From positions 1-30,151 of the IMG/VR virus record IMGVR_UViG_3300025030_000336: DNA of 30,151 nt. One strand, given 5' to 3'. Shown here one piece after another: positions 3,598-25,941 of the stretch. This DNA comes from a virus. The number at the start of each line of letters is the position of its first letter. Within the stretch, counting starts at the first letter, position 1. The notes beneath the pieces are model-generated. The model did no database searches and was not told the origin of the DNA. It was given only the letters and a program-made list of their open reading frames with translations. The position numbers were made by a program, and so were the translations under genes.

Positions 3598-5052
3598 ATG
3601 GCAATTACAGGCGAAATTGGAAGCAGCGGGCTTTTAGCGTGGTCGGGGATCATCCAGGAAGACTTCCTGACCGAACTCCAGGGCAAGCGCGGGTACAAGG
3701 CTTACCGCGAAATGGCCTTGAACGAGCCGGTCATCGGCGCGTTACTCCTGGCAATCGAGCACGCCATCCGGGGCGTTACATGGACGTTTGCGAGCGATAA
3801 AGGCGAAGAAGACCCGCGGCTGGAACTCTTGAAAGAAGCCAAGGAGAACCTGAGCCATTCGTGGAACGATCACATCGTAGAAGCCCTGTCCATGCTGCCG
3901 TTCGGTTACAGCTTCTTCGAGATCGTCTATGAGCGGATGGATAGCAAGATGTTGTGGCGCAAGTTCGCCGTCAGGGGCCAGGACACGCTCTACAAGTGGG
4001 AGATCGATGATACCGGCGGGCTGGCGGCCTTCGTCCAGCAGTCACCGCCCAAGTACCAGACCGTGACCATCCCCATCGAGAAATGCCTGCTCTACCGCAC
4101 GCGTCTTGAGCGCGGCAACCCGGAAGGGCGCTCGATACTCAGGACGGCGTATAAGGCTTATTACTATCTCAAGAACATCCAGGCCATCGAAGCCATCGGG
4201 ATCGAGCGGGACCTGGCCGGCCTGCCAATGATCCGCCTGCCGGAAGGGGCAACTACGGGTAGCGCGGCGGATACCGATAGCAGCGTTGCGGAGAAGGTGG
4301 TAAGGAACGTCCGCAACGACGAGCAGTCGGGCATTGTACTGAAGCCAGGCTGGGAGTTCGAGTTACTCTCGACCGGCGGCACCCGCCAGTTCGACACAGA
4401 CAAGATCATCAGCCGGTACGAGTCCCGAATCCTGATGAGTTCGCTCGCCCAATTCCTGATGCTGGGACAGGAAGGGGTTGGGAGCCTGGCCCTATCCCGT
4501 GACTCGACCGACTTCTTCACGATGTCGGTAAACGCCACGGCGGACATCATCGGCGAGACGTTCACCAAGTACGCCATCCCGCGCCTGTTGAAGCTGAACG
4601 GCCAGGACCCGGACGGGATCAGGCTGGAGCACTCGCCCGCCGGTGACGTGGACATCGAGAAGATCAGCGACTTCCTGCAGAAGGTGGGCGGTAACTTCCT
4701 GACCTGGACGGCGCAGGACGAGACCTGGCTGCGGGGTGCGGCTGGGCTGCCTGAACTGGACGAAGAAGAGATCGAAGCCGAGCGGGAGCGCAAGCAGGCA
4801 GTCGCATTAGAGATCGCACGGTCCGGGCCGCAGCAGCCAGGCGAAGCGCCGGGACGGGGGTCGCAAGACCAGCCTCCAACCCGTCCCGGCCAGCCTGGGA
4901 AACTGGGCGCTGAATTGTACTTCGCGCAGAACGCACCGGATGACGAAGAGCGGCGGCTGTGGGAACTGCGTTATGAGCGGTTGATGAAGGCGTATCTCGA
5001 CAAGGCAAAGAAGCGCGTGCTGAAAGAAGCCAGGAAACTCAAGAATGTCTGA
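3598..5052 (+). CDS. Portal protein, DUF935 / Mu gp29-like
   Basis: This 484-residue protein lies between terL and the Mu F-like gene, the standard place for the portal. The sequence has the DUF935 (Mu gp29) pattern: an N-terminal KRGYKAYREMALNEPVIGALL, a central EGRSILRTAYKAYYYLKN and AIGIERDLAGLPMI, then SRYESRILMSSLAQFLMLGQ. The portal is the dodecameric channel at the capsid vertex through which DNA enters and to which the neck attaches. The tail from about residue 395 is Pro/Gly/Gln-rich and then highly charged (LDKAKKRVLKEARKLKN), probably a flexible extension. It overlaps the next gene by 8 bases. Confidence 0.92.
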   Translation: MAITGEIGSSGLLAWSGIIQEDFLTELQGKRGYKAYREMALNEPVIGALLLAIEHAIRGVTWTFASDKGEEDPRLELLKEAKENLSHSWNDHIVEALSMLPFGYSFFEIVYERMDSKMLWRKFAVRGQDTLYKWEIDDTGGLAAFVQQSPPKYQTVTIPIEKCLLYRTRLERGNPEGRSILRTAYKAYYYLKNIQAIEAIGIERDLAGLPMIRLPEGATTGSAADTDSSVAEKVVRNVRNDEQSGIVLKPGWEFELLSTGGTRQFDTDKIISRYESRILMSSLAQFLMLGQEGVGSLALSRDSTDFFTMSVNATADIIGETFTKYAIPRLLKLNGQDPDGIRLEHSPAGDVDIEKISDFLQKVGGNFLTWTAQDETWLRGAAGLPELDEEEIEAERERKQAVALEIARSGPQQPGEAPGRGSQDQPPTRPGQPGKLGAELYFAQNAPDDEERRLWELRYERLMKAYLDKAKKRVLKEARKLKNV

Positions 5053-5647
5053 CCCGCGCCAGTACCAATTTTGGCTTGACGAAGACGGCGAGTTGTGGGA
5101 TGAAGTCGCTCCGCTGATCCTTGATATTTTCTACGACGGGGTGCGTGGTGGCGAGAAGTTGCTGCCACCCGCTGCGCGCGTGCTGATTGATTGGGACGTG
5201 GTAAACGAGCGGGCGATAGACTGGCTGAGGGGTTACCACTTCGACCTGATCCGAGGCATCAACGAGACCACCCGCACGCAGACACAGAAGGCGCTGGAAG
5301 AGTGGATTAGATCGGGAGAGAGTCTTGACGTTCTGGAAGCCAGGCTGGGGCCGGTATTCAGCCCACAACGAGCGCATAACATCGCCGTTACGGAGACGAC
5401 CAGGGCATACGCGAGCGCAAACGGGGAGGCCTGGGCCGCAAGTGGTGTGGTGGAAGAGTTCGACGTTATGACTGCAGAAGATATTAAGGTCTGCGAGATT
5501 TGCGAAGGTAAGGCAGACAACAATCCCTATCAACTCGGCGACGATGAAGGCGAGATGCCCTTCCATACCGGCTGCCGTTGCTGGAAGCACCCGCGGGTAT
5601 CTGAGAAGAAATTCCGCGAGCAGGTTCGGGGCATACTGGAAGAATAA
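5045..5647 (+). CDS. Mu F-like head morphogenesis protein
   Basis: 200 residues with the Phage_Mu_F / SPP1 gp7 pattern: INETTRTQTQKALEEWI, then an ITVTETTR-like segment (here NIAVTETTRAYASANGEAW), then VCEICEGKADNNPY and the C-terminal HTGCRCWKHPRV. The Cys/His pairs probably bind zinc. Family members are minor head proteins attached to the portal and needed for assembly or DNA ejection. It overlaps the portal at its start and the next gene at its end (TAATG), so it is translationally coupled on both sides. It lacks the ADP-ribosyltransferase or nuclease fusions seen in some relatives. Confidence 0.88.
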   Translation: MSDPRQYQFWLDEDGELWDEVAPLILDIFYDGVRGGEKLLPPAARVLIDWDVVNERAIDWLRGYHFDLIRGINETTRTQTQKALEEWIRSGESLDVLEARLGPVFSPQRAHNIAVTETTRAYASANGEAWAASGVVEEFDVMTAEDIKVCEICEGKADNNPYQLGDDEGEMPFHTGCRCWKHPRVSEKKFREQVRGILEE

Positions 5648-8240: not shown

Positions 8241-8624
8241 ATGGCAGGCTCAACAGAAGGATTCACCATCCCCGGCCTGACGGCTGCCGGTACGCTGGCA
8301 ACAGCGCAGTACAAGTTCGTCAAGACCGCCTCGACCGCCAACCAGGTCATCGTCGGGACGTCCGCCACCAGCAAGGTGCTGGGCGTTCTCCAGAACGACC
8401 CGGCTGATGGCGAAGAGGCGTCGGTGCAGTTCGCGGGCGTTGCGCGGGTGCTTTCCGAAGCGTCCGTGACCTACGGCTCGTTCGTCACCTGCTCGACCAC
8501 GGGCAGGGCAAAGTCCACCACAACGGTCGATAACCTGGTGCTCGGTAAGGCTCTGGAAGCCGGCAATGCTGGCGACATTATCAAAGTCCTGATCGGGTTC
8601 CAATTCTTGTACGCAACCACGTAA
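8241..8624 (+). CDS. DUF2190-like capsid decoration protein
   Basis: 127 residues, beginning MAGSTEGFTIPGLTAAGTLA. It has the DUF2190 pattern: an early FVKTASTANQVIVGTSA, then LGVLQNDPADGEEASVQFAG, VTYGSFVTCSTTGRA and a GKALEAGNAGDIIKVLIG end. Members are small beta-rich proteins encoded beside the capsid gene that trimerise on the capsid surface and stabilise it. AAGGAG lies nine bases before the ATG. It stands between the protease-scaffold gene and the major capsid gene, as usual. Confidence 0.75.
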   Translation: MAGSTEGFTIPGLTAAGTLATAQYKFVKTASTANQVIVGTSATSKVLGVLQNDPADGEEASVQFAGVARVLSEASVTYGSFVTCSTTGRAKSTTTVDNLVLGKALEAGNAGDIIKVLIGFQFLYATT

Positions 8625-8636
8625 CGAGGTGATGAC

Positions 8637-9581
8637 ATGACACTCCCAACCAAAAACGATGTGCAGGCGGTTAGTCCTGTTCTCACCAACATGCTTCTGG
8701 CGTACAAGAACGCGGACAGCCGCTTCGTGGCCGGGAAAGTATTCCCGTCCATCCCTGTCGAGAAAGACAGCGGGACCTACTACCTACTGACCAAGAAATA
8801 CTGGTTCCTTGACCTGCTGGAACGGCGCGCTCCCGGCGACGAGTTCGGGCGCGTGGGCTACGGGGTCGAGACAGCTACCTATGCCGCCGCTACCTGGGGC
8901 ATCGAGCACAAGATCGCCGACGAGATCCGGGCCAATAACCAGGTTCCGATGGCGCTCGAACAGGTCGGGCTTCAGTTCCTTTCCAACATGTCCCTGATCC
9001 GCAAGGAACGGGCATTCGCGGCAGACTTCATGGCTGCATCGGTCTGGACTACCCAGGACAACGACGCCACGACCGACTGGGACGATTATTCCGCGGGCGA
9101 TCCGCTGGCGGATCTTCGTACCGGCAAGCGCGGCATCTCCCAACTGACCGGGATGACGCCGAATACGCTCGTCGTGGGCGAGATCGTGGACGACGCCCTG
9201 GTGATCCATCCCGACATCATCGACCGGATCAAGTACACCCGTGCAGCCACGACCGGGGCAATGGAAGGCGCCCTGGCCGAAGTGCTGGGCACGAACTACC
9301 TGGTAGCAACGGCCATCTACAACAGCGCCGATGAAGGCCAGTCCGGTACCTATGCAGCCATCATCGACGACGACGCCCTGCTGCTGCACGTTGCACCGGG
9401 CGCGGACATGATGACCGCAAGCGCTGGCAAGACGTTTGTGTGGAATGGCGGCGGCGGAGACGGGCAGATCGTATCCTACCGCGACCAGTCGCACAAGTCC
9501 GATATTCTCCAATTGTCCGAGGCGTGGGACCAGAAAGTGACCGCTGCGGATTTAGGAGCGATCTGGCTTGGGGTAGTCTAA
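8637..9581 (+). CDS. Major capsid protein (HK97-fold)
   Basis: 314 residues directly after the decoration gene, the standard capsid position. It opens with MTLPTKNDVQAVSPVLTNML, has a KVFPSIPVEKDSGTYY segment (N-arm and first strands) and an IEHKIADEIRANNQ helix. A long spine-helix part, LEQVGLQFLSNMSLIRKERAFA, follows, and then TPNTLVVGEIVDDALVIHPDIIDRI, the A-domain region of this capsid group. Size and pattern fit HK97-fold capsids of Mu E-like or related type. A purine-rich ribosome site (GAGGTGATG) precedes the ATG. It builds the icosahedral shell together with scaffold and protease. Confidence 0.88.
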   Translation: MTLPTKNDVQAVSPVLTNMLLAYKNADSRFVAGKVFPSIPVEKDSGTYYLLTKKYWFLDLLERRAPGDEFGRVGYGVETATYAAATWGIEHKIADEIRANNQVPMALEQVGLQFLSNMSLIRKERAFAADFMAASVWTTQDNDATTDWDDYSAGDPLADLRTGKRGISQLTGMTPNTLVVGEIVDDALVIHPDIIDRIKYTRAATTGAMEGALAEVLGTNYLVATAIYNSADEGQSGTYAAIIDDDALLLHVAPGADMMTASAGKTFVWNGGGGDGQIVSYRDQSHKSDILQLSEAWDQKVTAADLGAIWLGVV

Positions 9582-9593
9582 GGAGGCTGAGTC

Positions 9594-10040
9594 ATGGCTA
9601 GACCACAGAACAGCTTCAAGGGACTGTTTGCCAAGAGCCGGGTTGACGTTGGATCGCAGCAAGTTACCTACAACTCGACCGCGCTGATCCTGTCGGGCGG
9701 CGTTCGCATCTCCGACAAAGCGGGCGGGCAGCTCACGGCTAACTCGACGGCTGTTATCCTGCCTGGTGGGGTGAAGATTTCCAACAAATCCACCGGGCAA
9801 TTGACAGCCAACTCGACCGGAGTCGTGTTCCCGGCGAAATTGCGCCTGGGAGCAACGAAGTACGTCGGGGCGAACTCGACCGGCTACACCTTCACCGCCG
9901 GGGCCGCTGTACCGTCTACACGGACAGCCGGCTACAACTGGACTTTCATCACGAACAGCACGGGCGTTTCCGGTATTGCCCTGCGCACGACCGGGACCAC
10001 CTGGAAGTTCGTCAACGTGACGACCGTCCTGCCTACGTAA
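9594..10040 (+). CDS. Repeat-containing virion-type protein, N-x-S/T-rich
   Basis: 148 residues with a very strong AAGGAGG ribosome site, so probably abundant. Five NST motifs (Asn 27, 50, 73, 94, 121) start successive repeats. The first two are near copies of 23 residues (NSTA-IL-GGV-IS-K--GQLTA). NKS (64), NWT (115) and NVT (141) bring the N-x-S/T total to eight. The predicted structure is all beta. The place straight after the capsid gene suggests a second decoration or head-fibre protein. I do not recognise the family. A glycosylation gene island starts about 400 bases downstream, which makes these sequons notable. Confidence 0.7.
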   Translation: MARPQNSFKGLFAKSRVDVGSQQVTYNSTALILSGGVRISDKAGGQLTANSTAVILPGGVKISNKSTGQLTANSTGVVFPAKLRLGATKYVGANSTGYTFTAGAAVPSTRTAGYNWTFITNSTGVSGIALRTTGTTWKFVNVTTVLPT

Positions 10041-10046
10041 ATAATA

Positions 10047-10156
10047 GCGCCTGGATAGGCTCCGGGGCCGAAAAGGGCCGCTCCCGCCCCTGCCAGGCGC
10101 ACTTCGGGAGCGGAATTGCCAAAGGCAATTCTTGAGCATTCGGCTTTGCCGAATGC
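10047..10156 (+). repeat. Cluster of inverted repeats after the capsid genes
   Basis: This gene-free stretch holds four perfect inverted repeats: GCGCCTGG (10047-10054) with CCAGGCGC (10093-10100); CCGCTCCCG (10078-10086) with CGGGAGCGG (10105-10113); GAATTGCC-AAA-GGCAATTC (10113-10131); and GCATTCGGC-TTT-GCCGAATGC (10136-10156). The 3' arm of the first lies in the loop of the second, so they form a pseudoknot or compete. No U-tract follows, so this may be an RNA stabiliser, processing site or Rho-type attenuator that sets capsid mRNA above downstream mRNA. Confidence 0.6.
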
Positions 10157-10177
10157 CAGTGTACTACGGGAGGGTAC

Positions 10178-10456
10178 ATGACTGCCAAATTCAATACTCA
10201 TGCGCTTCTGTGCCAGGGCTATTCGGTCAGCGTGCACCATGACGAATTGATTTCTATCAATGTCGATTTCGTCATGCAAGTTCCGGGTAGAGCTGATTCA
10301 GAGACCCTTATGGAAGCATTACACAATATTGGCATCTTCCTGAATAGCGGAAAAGTCAATCTTGTGAAGGCAACCGATAAGATGCGCTGTTTTCATTGCG
10401 GCGTTCTGGCAGGTGACGATGATCGAACCTGTACCCAATGCGGGGCACCGCTATGA
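10178..10456 (+). CDS. Hypothetical protein with C-terminal zinc ribbon
   Basis: 92 residues. Residues 1-68 are unrecognised, with alternating strands (GYSVSVHHDELISINVDFVM) and a helix (ETLMEALHNIGIFLN). The end is a clear zinc ribbon, CFHCGVLAGDDDRTCTQCG. GGGAGGGT lies just upstream of ATG 10178. Its stop overlaps the first glycosyltransferase start (ATGA), so it heads the glycan island. Its role there is unknown. Confidence 0.6.
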   Translation: MTAKFNTHALLCQGYSVSVHHDELISINVDFVMQVPGRADSETLMEALHNIGIFLNSGKVNLVKATDKMRCFHCGVLAGDDDRTCTQCGAPL

Positions 10457-11346
10457 AGCAGAAAGAGTACACCGGCACGGTTTACGTCGGCGTGGTGGGC
10501 GGTGATACGGAGAGCGGGGAGTGCCGGGACAGCATCGAGAAAATCTACCTGCGCCCCGGCGATGAAGGACCGATCTTCTACCGCGCCACCAAGGGCTATG
10601 AAGCCCGCCAACTGCACCTTAACAACTGGATAGAGAAGATCGTACACCCTTTTATGTTGTTGCTCGATCACGACATGGTGTTCCCGGTGGACGTGTTGGA
10701 GCGGCTGAGGGCGCATAAGCTGCCGTTTGTGTCAGGGTATTACCTGCGGCGGCGCTATGCGCCCCTGGCTCCGGTCTGGTTCAAACTGCCGCCGAAGCAC
10801 GCCTGGCCGATGGAGCCTTGGCTGGATGAACCGGAACGGGGCAAGTTGCACCCGCTGGGAGCGTCGGGCTGGGGCTGTATGCTCCTTCACCGGGATGTGG
10901 TCATGACGACAAAGCCCTTACTGAAAGGCGAGCAGGAAATACTCGAAGACGACCTGGACGTGTGGCCCTACGACTTGCCCGCAGTGCTGGAAGCCATGCG
11001 CGGCCTGCGCTGGCTGGCGGATACCGAAGCAGAAAGCCCCGCCACCTTGCAAAAGGCCGTCACCCCGTTCGTGGAAATACTGGAGCGGGAGATCCGGCCC
11101 CTGCGTGGGCGCAAAGACATCGTAGGCAGTGACATCCGTTACCCGTTCTACGCCAGGGAAGCGGGCTACGTCCTGATGGGCGACCCAGATTGTCGTTGCA
11201 AGCACATGCTGGACTATCCCCTATCACCTGACGATTTCAGCGATATGCCCCCGGATGCTCGGGAAAACATCTACAAAGAAATGCACCAGAAGATTGGAAT
11301 ACTCAGGCGTGAGCAGCGGCAGGTAGTAGAAAGGCTGGGAGCATGA
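10453..11346 (+). CDS. Glycosyltransferase family 2-like (GT-A fold)
   Basis: 297 residues from ATG 10453, which overlaps the previous stop (ATGA). It has a DxD-type metal/nucleotide-sugar site in LLLDHDMVFP (D72-H-D74), preceded by a helix ARQLHLNNWI. The segment FVSGYYLRRRYAPLAPVWFK and the later GASGWGCMLLHRDVV are typical of phage and bacterial GT2-like proteins. A charged insertion (about residues 155-215) is followed by YPFYAREAGYVLMGDPDCRCKH, the usual acceptor-side end. It should transfer a sugar from a nucleotide donor in the cytoplasm. Donor and acceptor cannot be told from sequence. It is the first enzyme of the coupled glycan island. Confidence 0.75.
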   Translation: MKQKEYTGTVYVGVVGGDTESGECRDSIEKIYLRPGDEGPIFYRATKGYEARQLHLNNWIEKIVHPFMLLLDHDMVFPVDVLERLRAHKLPFVSGYYLRRRYAPLAPVWFKLPPKHAWPMEPWLDEPERGKLHPLGASGWGCMLLHRDVVMTTKPLLKGEQEILEDDLDVWPYDLPAVLEAMRGLRWLADTEAESPATLQKAVTPFVEILEREIRPLRGRKDIVGSDIRYPFYAREAGYVLMGDPDCRCKHMLDYPLSPDDFSDMPPDARENIYKEMHQKIGILRREQRQVVERLGA

Positions 11347-11573
11347 GCAACAAAGATTATGCAACCGTTGTTTTTTGGGCACTTGATTTTTTACGTGCGG
11401 CCCACGAACATGGAAAATTTCGGCGCTGGCTTATCAGGCTGTCTTTAGGAAGATACGCATTTCGGGAGATGATGGGGATGCACGAAACCCTGGCAAAGAT
11501 GGGATATGACCCTGATTTGGAATACGGCATCGAAGGCTGCGAGTACCACAAAGAGAAAGTTGAGTGGAAATGA
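11343..11573 (+). CDS. Small hypothetical protein in the glycan island
   Basis: 76 residues, starting MSNKDYATVVFWALDFLRAA. It appears mostly helical and basic in its middle (HGKFRRWLIRLSLGRYAFREM). No motif or family recognised. Both ends overlap neighbours as ATGA junctions (11343-11346 and 11570-11573), so it is translated as part of the island. It may be a partner of one of the flanking glycosyltransferases, but nothing in the sequence shows this. Confidence 0.55.
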   Translation: MSNKDYATVVFWALDFLRAAHEHGKFRRWLIRLSLGRYAFREMMGMHETLAKMGYDPDLEYGIEGCEYHKEKVEWK

Positions 11574-12430
11574 CAGTCCTTTTCATTACCGTAGGCGGTG
11601 AAAGTTGGGCATCGGCCCGCATCCGCGGTTACTGGCCTGCTCGCTACATGGATGCGCGGGTAGTCACGACCGAAGAAGGGAGCAAGAATGGGCTAGACCT
11701 GGAAGGTGTGGATGTGGTGATCTGGCAGAAAACCGCCTCCATCGAACTAATCCGGTCTACACCCAACATCCGCCACTTCTGGGACGTGTGCGATCCGGTC
11801 TGGTGGTGGGCGCCGGAAGCGAGCAAGGAGATCGCTCAGGCTGTCGCGGGCATAGTTGCATCCAATACCGCCTTGGCTAAAGAGTTTGGCGAGTGGTCTG
11901 GGCTGCCCTGTAACGTAATCCCCGACAGACTAGAACTATCCCACTTTTCCGCACTGCGAGAACACCACGACTCTGCCCCGACTCGCCTAATCTGGTTTGG
12001 ACTGTACGGGAACCGACCGGCTCTGTTTGGCGCCCTGGCGAACCTGGAACGGCTGGCAGCAAACGGCCGCGACATTGAATTGACCATCTGTGACGAGCGC
12101 CCGGAATTACCGCTCAACATCACCAAGTTTTTTCCGGTTTACCACGTCCGCTGGGAACTGGAGCAGGAAAACGCCATCATTGCTGCGCATGACATTGCAA
12201 TCCTGCCGCCCTACCCCGGTTCATGGGGGCGGGTGAAGAGCAATAACCGGATATTGACCGCATGGGCCTGCGGCCTGCCCGCAACGGACTGCGAGAGCTA
12301 CAAAGAACTTGAACAGATGATGGACTCCAACACCCGCGCCAGGCTTGGCCGGGACGGGCGCAAGTTGGTTGAACAGGATTACAACGTCGAGCGATCGGCG
12401 CGGGAGTGGGAAGAGTTGCTGAGTGTTTGA
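11570..12430 (+). CDS. GT-B glycosyltransferase (GT4-like)
   Basis: 286 residues from ATG 11570 (ATGA overlap); a GTG two codons earlier is less likely. The layout is that of a compact GT-B enzyme. The N-terminal half has VLFITVGGESWASARIRG and IVASNTALAKEFGEW ending in a CNVIPDRLE hinge. The C-terminal half has LIWFGLYGNRPALFGALANLERLA, then HDIAILPPYPGSWGRVKSNN and RILTAWACGLPATDCESYKEL, the nucleotide-sugar site with a Glu at the usual EX7E-like place. Such proteins use UDP- or GDP-sugars. It differs in fold from its neighbours at 10453 and 12914, so the island makes more than one linkage type. Confidence 0.75.
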   Translation: MTVLFITVGGESWASARIRGYWPARYMDARVVTTEEGSKNGLDLEGVDVVIWQKTASIELIRSTPNIRHFWDVCDPVWWWAPEASKEIAQAVAGIVASNTALAKEFGEWSGLPCNVIPDRLELSHFSALREHHDSAPTRLIWFGLYGNRPALFGALANLERLAANGRDIELTICDERPELPLNITKFFPVYHVRWELEQENAIIAAHDIAILPPYPGSWGRVKSNNRILTAWACGLPATDCESYKELEQMMDSNTRARLGRDGRKLVEQDYNVERSAREWEELLSV

Positions 12431-12917
12431 GTATTTGAAGCCCTTCACCCGCGTGATCGTCACCGGTCCGCAAAGGTCAGGAACGCGCATCTGTGCAAAG
12501 ATGATCTCCGCGGATACAGGCCTGCGCTATGTAGACGAACAGGATATCGCCGTCGACAGCCTGTATGCCCTTGCGCACATGCTCACGGAAGGCGACGTGG
12601 TTATTCAATGCCCTGCCCTGTCTTATTGGGCCTGGGCGGTCGGGACGGTTGACGATGTGGCCGTGGTGCTTATGCGACGCCCGGTGGTAGACATCATTGC
12701 CAGCCAGGAGCGCGTCGGATGGAAGTACGAATGGTTGGAGTTGATGCGCTACGGGGCGGCAAGCGGTCCGATTGCGGAAGTCAAGTACAGGTTTTGGGAT
12801 GAAACGAAGGACAGGATCAAGCACCCCTTCGAAGTGGAGTACGAGAGCTTGAAGGCTCACCCGCTATGGATCAAAGAGCGGGCAGGCTTTAGCTACGACC
12901 AGACGGAGGCCGTATGA
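12423..12917 (+). CDS. Sulfotransferase-like P-loop protein
   Basis: 164 residues from GTG 12423. It opens with VIVTGPQRSGTRICAKMI. The PxRSGT loop is the 5'-phosphosulfate binding loop of PAPS-dependent sulfotransferases rather than a classical Walker A (no GKT/S). A central VVLMRRPVVDIIASQ resembles the 3'-phosphate box (RxPxxxxxS). The protein is shorter than typical sulfotransferases (about 250-300 residues) and may be a minimal form, or another P-loop transferase or kinase. Its position between two glycosyltransferases suggests that it modifies the same glycan. It overlaps both neighbours. Confidence 0.6.
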   Translation: MFEYLKPFTRVIVTGPQRSGTRICAKMISADTGLRYVDEQDIAVDSLYALAHMLTEGDVVIQCPALSYWAWAVGTVDDVAVVLMRRPVVDIIASQERVGWKYEWLELMRYGAASGPIAEVKYRFWDETKDRIKHPFEVEYESLKAHPLWIKERAGFSYDQTEAV

Positions 12918-13651
12918 CCGTCAAATGGGTGTGCGGGTCGAATGAGCGTTACCTTCCCAAGATGGGCGCCTTCCTGCGCTCACTTGACGAACATTGCCCC
13001 TTTGAGCTGTGGTACGTGCCAGTTGGATTTGATACCGAACCGTTCAAGCGAGTGCAGGCTACCGCGCTCACTAAAGATCAGAACGCGGGCGCGCCGCCTG
13101 AAACTGAGTGTATCCAGCACGGTTCATTCCTGCAGGTGATACCGGGAAATGATGACGATATTCTGATCTACTCGGATGGCGACATGATCATGCAGCGCTC
13201 GCCCAGCACGGGAGAGATCGACTGGCTAGAGAACTTCCCCGATGGCATGGTTAGCGCAGGCTGGAACAGCGGGCCGGGCGAGACGTTGATGGACGAGGCG
13301 ACCCGCCTACATCCGAAAATCACTCCCTGGGATACGCTGAAGATATGGAGCACGCACATCTTGCACCTGAACTGCTTCAACGTTGGGGTACTGGTGGCAA
13401 GGCGCTCGACCTGGCAGCGGATTTACGACGCCTACATAGAACGCTGGGAGAAGATAAGCGCCACATTCGAGCACCAGGGCCGCCAGCAGTGGTTGATCTG
13501 CTACTGCTTCCACCTGCTGCAGCTCCAGATCCACGTCATGCCCTACACCTTCCACACCCACGGTCATTACCAGATACCGGACGGGGTTGAAGAGATCGGT
13601 GGCCTGATCTGCTACAAGGGCGAGCCGGTTTTGCTGAGACATCGAATATGA
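12914..13651 (+). CDS. Glycosyltransferase, GT8-like
   Basis: 245 residues from ATG 12914 (ATGA overlap). It starts VKWVCGSNERYLPKMGAFLRSL, a GT-A type entry, and has a metal-binding DxD in YSDGDMIM (D88-G-D90). HLNCFNVGVLVARRSTW and EHQGRQQWLI (the conserved Asn/Gly and Gln positions) follow, and the end is FHTHGHYQ with a catalytic-side His. This order matches GT8-like retaining transferases that use UDP-sugars. The enzyme should act in the cytoplasm on the same acceptor or glycan as its neighbours. Family assignment is by pattern and could be another GT-A family. Confidence 0.7.
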   Translation: MTVKWVCGSNERYLPKMGAFLRSLDEHCPFELWYVPVGFDTEPFKRVQATALTKDQNAGAPPETECIQHGSFLQVIPGNDDDILIYSDGDMIMQRSPSTGEIDWLENFPDGMVSAGWNSGPGETLMDEATRLHPKITPWDTLKIWSTHILHLNCFNVGVLVARRSTWQRIYDAYIERWEKISATFEHQGRQQWLICYCFHLLQLQIHVMPYTFHTHGHYQIPDGVEEIGGLICYKGEPVLLRHRI

Positions 13652-14229
13652 TTGACTTCTTTTTCGATCCCGCCGCGCCGGTCCAGCCCGACCAATACCA
13701 GACGGAGTTCAATTGCCTGCTGAAATATTACGAGCAGCTTGCCCCCCGACGGGTACTGGAGATCGGGGTCAGGGAGGGTGGCAGCCTGTACCAGTGGATC
13801 AAGCGCAAACCTGAACTCGTGGTAGCAGTAGATGACGGCGGGATGTTACGTTGGGGCAATGATGGCAAGATCGACCCCGGCAAGTGGCAGGAGTGGGCGG
13901 ATTACTACGGCGTGAAACTGGTAGCGGTGATGGGCGATAGCCACGATCCACGCATCCGTCTGAAGGTCGCTGAACATAAGCCATTTGATTTTATCTTCAT
14001 CGATGGCGACCACTTAGCGGGCGGGGTAGAGCAGGACTTGAGCGATTATCTGCCGATGGTTCGACTCGGCGGCATCGCCGTGCTACACGACATCCTTCCT
14101 GATTACAGTGATCCTGGCATTGGCGTCTGGCAAGCCTGGGAGCGGTTACGGGAGAGCGGCGCGCTTTTGCGGGAGTTGTACCAGCATGAGAACCAGGGCA
14201 ACCGCGGGATCGGGATGATTTATGTATGA
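13648..14229 (+). CDS. SAM-dependent methyltransferase (class I)
   Basis: 193 residues with a Methyltransf_24 / cephalosporin-hydroxylase-like Rossmann pattern. It has VLEIGVREGGSLYQWI (motif I, SAM-binding), LVVAVDDGG (acid loop), FDFIFIDGDHLAGGVEQDL (motif with metal-binding Asp and His) and LGGIAVLHDILP. Relatives in glycan clusters O-methylate sugars. It begins at the ATGA overlap with the GT8-like gene and ends overlapping the mutase by 8 bases, so it belongs to the same unit. Methylation of the phage glycan is the likely but unproven role. Confidence 0.75.
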   Translation: MIDFFFDPAAPVQPDQYQTEFNCLLKYYEQLAPRRVLEIGVREGGSLYQWIKRKPELVVAVDDGGMLRWGNDGKIDPGKWQEWADYYGVKLVAVMGDSHDPRIRLKVAEHKPFDFIFIDGDHLAGGVEQDLSDYLPMVRLGGIAVLHDILPDYSDPGIGVWQAWERLRESGALLRELYQHENQGNRGIGMIYV

Positions 14230-15283
14230 CTTCCTGATCGTCGGGGCCGGGTTGTTCGGATCGGTGTGCGCCCGCGAGTTGTCAGACAATGGCAAGCGGG
14301 TATTAGTGATCGAGCGGCGCAAGCACATCGCCGGCAACTGCTATGACGAAACGGTGGAAGGGATACGCGCTAACCTGTACGGCGGGCACATCTTCCACAC
14401 CAAGAGCAAGCGGATTTGGGATTATGCCAGCCGATTCACTACCTGGCGGCAGTATGAGCACCGGGTGAAGTCCTTTACCAACCGCAGAGTGTATTCGTTC
14501 CCGGTCAATTTGATGACCTTGCACCAGATATACGGTATCACCACCGAAGAGCAGGCGCGTGCGCTGATGGAGCAGCCGAAGGTAAGACAGTACCTTTTCG
14601 AGACGTTCTTCGACGGTTACACCCGCAAGCAGTGGGGCAGGGCGCCGGAAGACGTTCCAGGCGGCGTCATTGACCGCATCCCTTACCGGCTTACGTGGGA
14701 TGATAGATACTTCGACGATCCTTACCAGGGCTTGCCAGAAGATGGATACACGGCCTGGATTGGGCGCATACTGGAAGGTGTGCCAGTACTGAAGGAAGCA
14801 GACTACCTGTTGGATCGGGATGCCTGGGATCGGGAAGCAAAGCAAATGATCTACTCCGGGGCGCTTGATGAACTGTATCACAATGAGTACGGACGTCTGG
14901 AGTATCGGAGCCTGAAATTCGAGATGTTGAAAGTTGATCGGGAAACCTACCAGGGCTGCGCGACGATGAATTACCCGGAGATCGAAGTACCCTGGACACG
15001 GATCATGGAGTGGAAATGCTTCAATCCTGCGCAAGTGGCGCATACGCTCATTACCAGGGAATATCCGCTCGCACATGAACCAGGTGATGCTAAGCGAAGC
15101 GGCACGATACCGTATTACCCGGTCAGGACCGACTTGAACGTCAAGAAGTACCAGCAGTACCGGGAGCGGGCAGAGAGCGAAGGGCTGATCGTAGGCGGCA
15201 GGTTGGGAAGTTACCAATACCTGAATATGGACCAGACAATCGGGCAAGCGCTGGCTTTAGCAAATCGAGAATTAAATGCCTGA
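14222..15283 (+). CDS. glf: UDP-galactopyranose mutase
   Basis: 353 residues with the full bacterial Glf layout and length. FLIVGAGLFGSVCARELS (FAD-binding GxGxxG at residues 8-13) is followed by VLVIERRKHIAGNCYD, GGHIFHTKSKRIWDY, FFDGYTRKQWG, PYRLTWDDRYFDDPYQGLPEDGYT (cut here for clarity) and the C-terminal GRLGSYQYLNMDQTI. The enzyme is a flavoprotein that interconverts UDP-galactopyranose and UDP-galactofuranose by a covalent flavin-sugar adduct. It needs reduced FAD. A phage gene of this kind in a late operon implies a galactofuranose-containing product, used by the neighbouring transferases. It overlaps both neighbours by 8 bases. The protein family is certain; its substrate route in this host is inferred. 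Confidence 0.95.
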   Translation: MYDFLIVGAGLFGSVCARELSDNGKRVLVIERRKHIAGNCYDETVEGIRANLYGGHIFHTKSKRIWDYASRFTTWRQYEHRVKSFTNRRVYSFPVNLMTLHQIYGITTEEQARALMEQPKVRQYLFETFFDGYTRKQWGRAPEDVPGGVIDRIPYRLTWDDRYFDDPYQGLPEDGYTAWIGRILEGVPVLKEADYLLDRDAWDREAKQMIYSGALDELYHNEYGRLEYRSLKFEMLKVDRETYQGCATMNYPEIEVPWTRIMEWKCFNPAQVAHTLITREYPLAHEPGDAKRSGTIPYYPVRTDLNVKKYQQYRERAESEGLIVGGRLGSYQYLNMDQTIGQALALANRELNA

Positions 15284-24854: not shown

Positions 24855-25175
24855 CTAACTTTCGTCTTTGCTCGAAATCCGCAGGTTAAATTTTTTCTTG
24901 GGGCTTTCAGAGTGAACCTTGTACTCATTGAGATCCATCTCTCCCGCCTCGACCAACTTCAGGCCCCGCCAGATAAGCAGGGCGGCGACCTGCGACTCCG
25001 GGCAGTCGTGCTCTTCCGAAAGTTGCTTGACGGCCTCTGAAATATCCAGGGGAATATCATACATCTTGCGGTTGCGCTCCTGATAGTTTTGGTCCGTCTT
25101 TCCCTTCGGGCGAAGACTTTGCATCAGGTTGGCGACGTTCTTGTCAACTCGAGTCGTTCTCTTATCATCGTCCAT
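24855..25175 (-). CDS. Ribbon-helix-helix protein, likely ParA partner
   Basis: 106 residues from ATG 25175, seven bases after GGAG and overlapping the ParA stop by 11 bases. The N-terminal half is basic and probably disordered (DDDKRTTRVDKNVANLMQ). The middle shows an RHH-like core: strand KMYDIPLDISEAVKQLSEEH, then helix PESQVAALLIWRGLKLVEAG. Small RHH proteins encoded directly after ParA bind the centromere repeats and stimulate the ATPase in type Ib systems. The paired repeats at 24774..24847 are the probable binding site. It could also act as the operon's repressor. Confidence 0.65.
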   Translation of the reverse strand: MDDDKRTTRVDKNVANLMQSLRPKGKTDQNYQERNRKMYDIPLDISEAVKQLSEEHDCPESQVAALLIWRGLKLVEAGEMDLNEYKVHSESPKKKFNLRISSKDES

Positions 25176-25941
25176 TGAGAACTCCAATCAATTGATCTAC
25201 CACCTGAGCATATCCACCAGCACGTGTCTTTTTGTCCAGAGCGTAGCCGATGATCGCAGGACAGTTAGGCGCATATTCCCAGAGAGTCTTACCAAATGCG
25301 GGCGCTTCCCTGGCTTTGACATCTGCGGGGATTGGCGGCCACACGTGACCTTTGAACGCTTTGACCAGCTCTTCCAATTGCACCAAGGTCTCCTTCGTCA
25401 CCCGGTCAAAGAAAGTTGGCAGGATAGCGTATCCCTTAGACCGGCCTTCTCCCGACATGGCAATCTCTGCATAGCTTCTTAGGACTTCGTTCACCCCATC
25501 AATGGCCAGCGCATCCAGCCGGGTCGGGATGAGCAGGTACTCGGCAGCGACCAGGGCGGCAACATGCAGGATGTCCATTGACGGCGCGCTGTCCAGAATG
25601 ATAACCGGATAGGATGCGGATGACAATTTACTCTTCAGGATACGCTCAGAGAAATACGCCTGGTGCAAATAGCGCTTTGCGGCTTCGGTGGATTTGTCAC
25701 TCGGGAGAATGTCAAGCATCGGGCGGGCTTCGATGACAACCTTTTGAAGCGGCCTATCTTCTGCAATGAGTGAGTACAAGCCAGGGCTTTTTTCGATGCC
25801 TAGCGCCTGGGATACGTGCCCTTGTGGATCAAGGTCTACAACCAGAGTTGAGTAACCCTGCCTTGCCAGACCATGCCCGATGTTAATAGCGGAAGTCGTT
25901 TTCCCGACTCCCCCTTTTTGATTCATGACGGCTGTGATCAT
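25165..25941 (-). CDS. parA: ParA-family partition ATPase
   Basis: 258 residues. The deviant Walker A KGGVGKTT is at residues 9-16, then VVDLDPQGHVSQALG (motif A'), VIILDSAPSMDILHVAALVAA (Walker B) and LLIPTRLDALAIDGV. There is no N-terminal helix-turn-helix domain, so it is of the short, type Ib class. It forms ATP-dependent dimers on the nucleoid and moves centromere-bound DNA. ATG 25941 overlaps the upstream gene's stop (ATGA), and the RHH gene follows. In a phage this points to a low-copy extrachromosomal prophage. Confidence 0.9.
   Translation of the reverse strand: MITAVMNQKGGVGKTTSAINIGHGLARQGYSTLVVDLDPQGHVSQALGIEKSPGLYSLIAEDRPLQKVVIEARPMLDILPSDKSTEAAKRYLHQAYFSERILKSKLSSASYPVIILDSAPSMDILHVAALVAAEYLLIPTRLDALAIDGVNEVLRSYAEIAMSGEGRSKGYAILPTFFDRVTKETLVQLEELVKAFKGHVWPPIPADVKAREAPAFGKTLWEYAPNCPAIIGYALDKKTRAGGYAQVVDQLIGVLNGR

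Follow-up and report, generated by a model that had tools for sequence, protein, structure and literature searches.

The virus sequence studied here, a window of 30,151 nucleotides (IMG/VR record IMGVR_UViG_3300025030_000336, positions 1 to 30,151), encodes directly behind its capsid gene a small repeat protein with an anchor–repeat–end architecture. The four-residue motif carried by its repeats, N-[S/T]-T-[G/A], is enriched at the peptide level across the structural module of one phage clade, in which the capsid gene, the repeat protein gene and the gene of a glycosyltransferase (GT1) follow one another in nearly every contig. From these patterns we infer the virion location of the protein, its glycosylation, the role of GT1 and the linked residue; we lean, tentatively, towards a virion-anchored repeat protein whose clade-specific motif would be glycosylated directly by GT1, on Ser/Thr more likely than on Asn. 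We rate glycosylation about equal to the motif being a purely structural turn, and both are weighed below.

The repeat protein and its gene neighbourhood

The repeat protein gene (9594..10040, plus strand, as are all features of the window below unless stated) has a strong ribosome-binding site, with the Shine-Dalgarno sequence AAGGAGG read directly at 9580..9586. It lies immediately downstream of the gene for the major capsid protein (MCP; 8637..9581; phrog_1005 E 2e-63, PF03864), upstream of which is a cement/decoration protein gene (8241..8624; PF09956 E 9e-6). The 148-residue product contains eight N-x-S/T sequons, as the initial annotation had described. Five of these are NST, at residues 27–29 (9672..9680), 50–52 (9741..9749), 73–75 (9810..9818), 94–96 (9873..9881) and 121–123 (9954..9962), spaced by 23, 23, 21 and 27 residues. 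The others are NKS at residues 64–66 (9783..9791), which comparison with homologues shows is not conserved, NWT at 115–117 (9936..9944) and NVT at residue 141. Sequons take up eight of the nine Asn of the protein; shuffled sequences give 2.16 sequons and reach eight in 1 of 20,000 shuffles, and for NST alone 5 are observed against 0.14 expected.

Used alone as query, the repeat protein retrieved no relative from viral contigs, bacterial genomes or annotated phages. The first relative (L082, 41% identity) was reached via the adjoining glycosyltransferase, and profile searches then led to about 40 distinct homologues of 66–209 residues, in the equivalent gene position and only in uncultivated viral contigs. 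No homologue was found in the bacterial genomes searched, and neither the repeat protein nor GT1 has one in 50,697 annotated phage records. Searches of Pfam, PHROGs and PDB sequences gave no significant match to the repeat protein, and single weak hits for some homologues.

The homologues share an N-terminal anchor with the consensus MA[HR]PQ[NS]SPRGLFAKxRIDVG, corresponding to residues 1–20 in the window (MARPQNSFKGLFAKSRVDVG, 9594..9653), in which Q5 is found in 39, R9 in 40 and G10 in 40 of 41 homologues. A variable number of repeats of about 22 residues follows, and most homologues finish in one of two C-terminal ends, YISxN[ST]TGN[TA]TT or NTTGTTWKYLNVTSxxPT. The window protein has the type II end (RTTGTTWKFVNVTTVLPT, 9984..10037), where T133 and T143 are invariant and N141 occurs in 11 of 21. 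Among the NST sites, residue 27 is N in 24 and D in 8 of 34 ungapped homologues (T at residue 29 in 30), and residues 121–123 are conserved as N in 30/41, S in 38/41 and T in 37/41, followed by a Gly present in 41/41.

One contig has a similar anchor joined to a body of 220 residues that is unrelated and has no NST repeats (L116:4748-5476); this fusion protein matches nothing in PHROGs or annotated phages. In another contig, L124, the repeat protein is present twice in tandem (4523-4903 and 4918-5316), both copies having the same anchor. Body swap and tandem copies would both fit a surface protein of modular build, anchored through its N terminus. The location of the gene beside the capsid gene, the conserved short anchor and the swappable body are the features expected of a head decoration or fibre protein. 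Such proteins of tailed phages are likewise small, with a capsid-adjoining gene, an N-terminal anchor and a variable body, and the repeat protein may also be beta-rich as they are; unlike the known ones, the present repeat family has no Pfam, PHROG or PDB sequence match and is only predicted to be part of the virion.

Between the repeat protein gene and the next gene, the spacer at 10041-10177 contains several short inverted repeats (GCGCCTGG...CCAGGCGC, GAATTGCCAAAGGCAATTC, GCATTCGGCTTTGCCGAATGC) with no T run, possibly an mRNA processing or stability element. The genes that follow encode a zinc-ribbon protein shared with only two other contigs (10178..10456), GT1 (10453..11346), a second glycosyltransferase recognised by a weak match (11564..12430; phrog_7162 E 3e-4; present in 29 loci), a weakly matched sulfotransferase-like protein (12423..12917; PF13469 E 0.05), a protein with no family match in Pfam or PHROG searches (12914..13651), a methyltransferase (13648..14229; PF13578 E 4e-9) and a UDP-galactopyranose mutase, Glf (14222..15283; PF03275 E 2e-65). 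An adjoining island with glycosyltransferases and UDP-Galf synthesis, proposed from the sequence at the outset, is thereby borne out. The mutase is private to the window, being absent from all clade relatives compared for island content, which implies that the chemistry of the island changes quickly. The type of C-terminal end agrees with the presence or absence of the second glycosyltransferase in 33 of 38 contigs, an association that comprises only four independent pairs and is not significant.

Elsewhere in the window, a gene on the minus strand (25165-25941) is tentatively assigned to the ParA-like ATPases and suggests a plasmid-like or lysogenic state. In a relative, the minor head (MuF-like) protein L083:3151-4842 is interrupted after HVGC by an intein-like insertion that includes a TENHPILT-type block; the insertion is missing from the closely related L084:3769-4548.

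The N-[S/T]-T-[G/A] motif in virion proteins

Within the repeat proteins, Asn is the usual residue before [ST]T[GAS] (N 130, D 21, other 22), the position +2 of Asn is T rather than S (178 vs 5), and 152 of 182 NxT have S or T in the middle. These sequence counts define a motif, N-[S/T]-T-[G/A], that is more restricted than a glycosylation sequon. Aligned sites that have lost Asn retain T or S at +2 in 40 of 45 cases, but lose T more often than sites where Asn is present. A first impression that Asn is dispensable had to be moderated, since outside the repeat protein [^N][ST]T occurs at chance (1.00) and N[ST]T is enriched 4.35-fold.

Enrichment in other proteins was counted after removal of the repeat protein, so that most of the proteins left for GT1 contigs come from the structural region; gene calls followed a simple longest-ORF rule, on contigs that are fragments. 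NST then occurs 154 times, in 111 contexts, against 24 expected (z 17.7), and ranks first of 5,677 tripeptides (next best z 9.5), compared to 3,115th of 5,415 in relatives without GT1. The full motif N[ST]T[GA] is found 107 times vs 9.8 expected in GT1 contigs, and 13 times vs 14.9 in relatives without GT1. When each alignment column was counted once, NST filled 40 columns and its five permutations 10–24, the corresponding values for relatives without GT1 being 28 and 18–30. The excess is weak in the window's own subclade (5 vs 1.8 outside the repeat protein) and in the clade that has no repeat protein (6 vs 2.1).

Two causes were considered and discarded. First, a repeat at the DNA level is ruled out, since NST is encoded by 38 different 9-mers that use both serine codon families, which indicates selection on the peptide. 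Second, a genome-wide amino-acid bias is ruled out by the non-structural genes: across nine genomes the structural module contains 52 NST vs 10.1 expected, and the other partitions show no enrichment (4/4.0, 3/3.5 and 2/3.0 observed/expected). NST is located in capsid, cement, tail-tube and head-adaptor proteins and in one small beta protein, and not in GT1 or the second glycosyltransferase. Its presence in unrelated virion proteins of one clade calls for a common cause.

Such a cause might be structural: N-[S/T]-T-[G/A] would be only a preferred turn between short strands, the repeat protein would serve unmodified as a head fibre or decoration protein, and GT1 would act elsewhere. We take this to be a serious possibility. 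It accommodates the replacement of Asn by D or S while S/T-T-G stays, the retention of T or S at +2 and the occurrence of the motif in the neck adaptor and portal, where it may not be exposed. It is also consistent with a turn of the cement protein that reads NSTG in clade relatives and DASG or SADG in phages without GT1, implying that an ordinary turn became NSTG, SSTG or DSTG in the GT1 clade. Two observations point the other way. Structural-region proteins of relatives without GT1, the same capsid and cement families included, show no enrichment (NST observed/expected 33/36). N[ST]S and N[ST](not T)[GA] fall below expectation, so that four specific positions are needed. The predicted AlphaFold model of the repeat protein (pLDDT 66.5, pTM 0.33) is of low confidence, too uncertain to display turns or to locate the motif in a structure.

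A different cause would be Asn-linked glycosylation of the sequons, by the host or by an unrecognised N-glycosyltransferase, which we regard as very unlikely. Asn as the usual first residue, the preference for T over S at +2 and the share of Asn held by sequons in the window protein would all suit such sites. However, sequons with other middle residues are not enriched in GT1 contigs (observed/expected 226/51 for N[ST]T, 324/301 for N(other)T and 281/328 for NxS); enrichment is not independent of the middle residue, as it should be were N-x-S/T the acceptor. Individual sites agree poorly as well: the conserved site 131 reads RTT in the window protein, and in the C-terminal end T143 is invariant and N141 is not. 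The initial annotation had seen no oligosaccharyltransferase or HMW1C-like enzyme, and searches of 34 contigs, which are fragments, likewise detected neither STT3 nor GT41, with control genomes positive. Virions of tailed phages assemble in the cytoplasm, and oligosaccharyltransferases act outside it. Asn linkage, which the initial annotation had offered only as a hypothesis beside Ser/Thr, is not upheld, given the narrower motif, sequons of other classes at chance, replacement of Asn by D or S, and no oligosaccharyltransferase or GT41 in these contigs.

GT1 and its association with the repeat protein

The predicted model of GT1 (pLDDT 94.9) has a GT-A fold and the DxD (D72, D74) and ED (E165, D166) residues are invariant in 38 homologues, so we confidently predict a GT-A enzyme. 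Its best fold match is STIV A197 (PDB 2c0n; Z 18.9 over 170 residues), followed by LH3, mimivirus R699 and the collagen galactosyltransferase ColGalT1, several of which glycosylate proteins. STIV A197 is nevertheless only 16% identical to GT1, whose own acceptor is a prediction and cannot be read from its fold.

Repeat protein and GT1 travel together. In searches with repeat and capsid profiles, which do not depend on GT1, no repeat protein was found without GT1 among contigs that reach that far, and the case that the initial annotation had named as refuting its proposal, repeats without the island, did not arise: every homologue found with the repeat profile adjoins GT1 where its contig reaches it. 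The capsid profile likewise identified no clade member lacking GT1 among contigs extending far enough beyond the capsid gene. Of the enzymes found, GT1 alone occurs in all clade members. On the MCP tree the GT1 phages form one clade (support 99), so the link between GT1 and the motif amounts to a single evolutionary event that offers no independent contrasts.

The association does not hold in reverse. L001/L002, L083/L084, L149 and L151 keep the MCP and GT1 and have no repeat protein; on the capsid tree L001/L002, L083, L149 and L151 form one nested clade (support 98), and the repeat protein was probably lost once with GT1 kept. GT1 can thus do without the repeat protein, and some other acceptor is needed for the island. 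The earlier proposal of the repeat protein as the glycan acceptor accordingly survives in part, in that the two genes travel together, and falls short in this lineage. The persistence of GT1 here also suits the purely structural turn considered above.

It further suits glycosyltransferases that modify phage DNA, the host surface or other virion sites, with the repeat protein beside them merely as part of a conserved late gene block, and phage glycosyltransferases acting on DNA are known (Pyle 2024, as cited in PMC12619734). This seems to us improbable, as every contig has GT1 inside its block of head genes, no enzyme for DNA-modification precursors could be recognised in the island, and the NST enrichment would be left unexplained.

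Candidate glycosylation of the motif

We postulate that the repeat protein is a late structural protein whose 20 conserved N-terminal residues probably fix it to the phage head and whose outward body would consist of tandem short beta-rich repeats, freely variable in number and each with one N-[S/T]-T-[G/A] turn. GT1 would add the first sugar directly to the motif, in the cytoplasm, before or during assembly, and the variable enzymes encoded behind GT1 may extend or decorate the glycan. The acceptors would be Ser/Thr hydroxyls more probably than Asn, since the two hydroxyl-bearing positions are fixed and Asn can give way to D or S. The repeat protein would not be the sole acceptor, only the densest. 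Recognition by a shared enzyme could explain why so precise a four-residue motif is limited to the structural module, and assembly in the cytoplasm would call for a soluble enzyme that transfers the sugar directly, a role GT1 could fill. Counting against this reading are the single origin of the link between GT1 and the motif, the loss of the repeat protein with GT1 kept, the weak excess in the window's own subclade, the motif in the neck adaptor and portal, and the lack of significant co-change between the type of C-terminal end and the second glycosyltransferase.

Comparable systems agree in part. In mycobacteriophages, virion proteins including capsid and tail tube are glycosylated, with phage-encoded glycosyltransferases as the presumed enzymes (Freeman et al. 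2023, as cited in PMC12619734). According to that citing account the glycans are at the C-termini of capsid and tail tube, unlike the repeated internal four-residue motif and dedicated repeat protein of the GT1 clade, where glycosylation is a candidate only. The general O-glycosylation motif of Bacteroidota, D-(S/T)-(A/I/L/V/M/T) (PMC12871550, PMC8550257), is comparable in that it spans three residues, the one ahead of Ser/Thr being acidic or an amide, and is over-represented in the proteome; that system is, however, periplasmic and host-made, uses a lipid-linked glycan and has as first residue an Asp that is hardly replaceable.

A broader proposal, that the clade encodes its own cytoplasmic motif-directed glycosylation, in which GT1 reads N-[S/T]-T-[G/A], unrelated folds have evolved the tag and the repeat protein is the glycan carrier of the head, we consider doubtful on present evidence. 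To our knowledge, virion glycosylation in tailed phages is known in few cases and has no defined sequence signal. If the tag is a phage-encoded glycosylation signal, sequence could serve to predict glycosylated virion proteins, and GT1 would be an enzyme, compact and soluble, for modifying a tag of four residues. Were the motif purely structural, there would still have to be a cause for one whole lineage to prefer a single turn in virion proteins that are unrelated.
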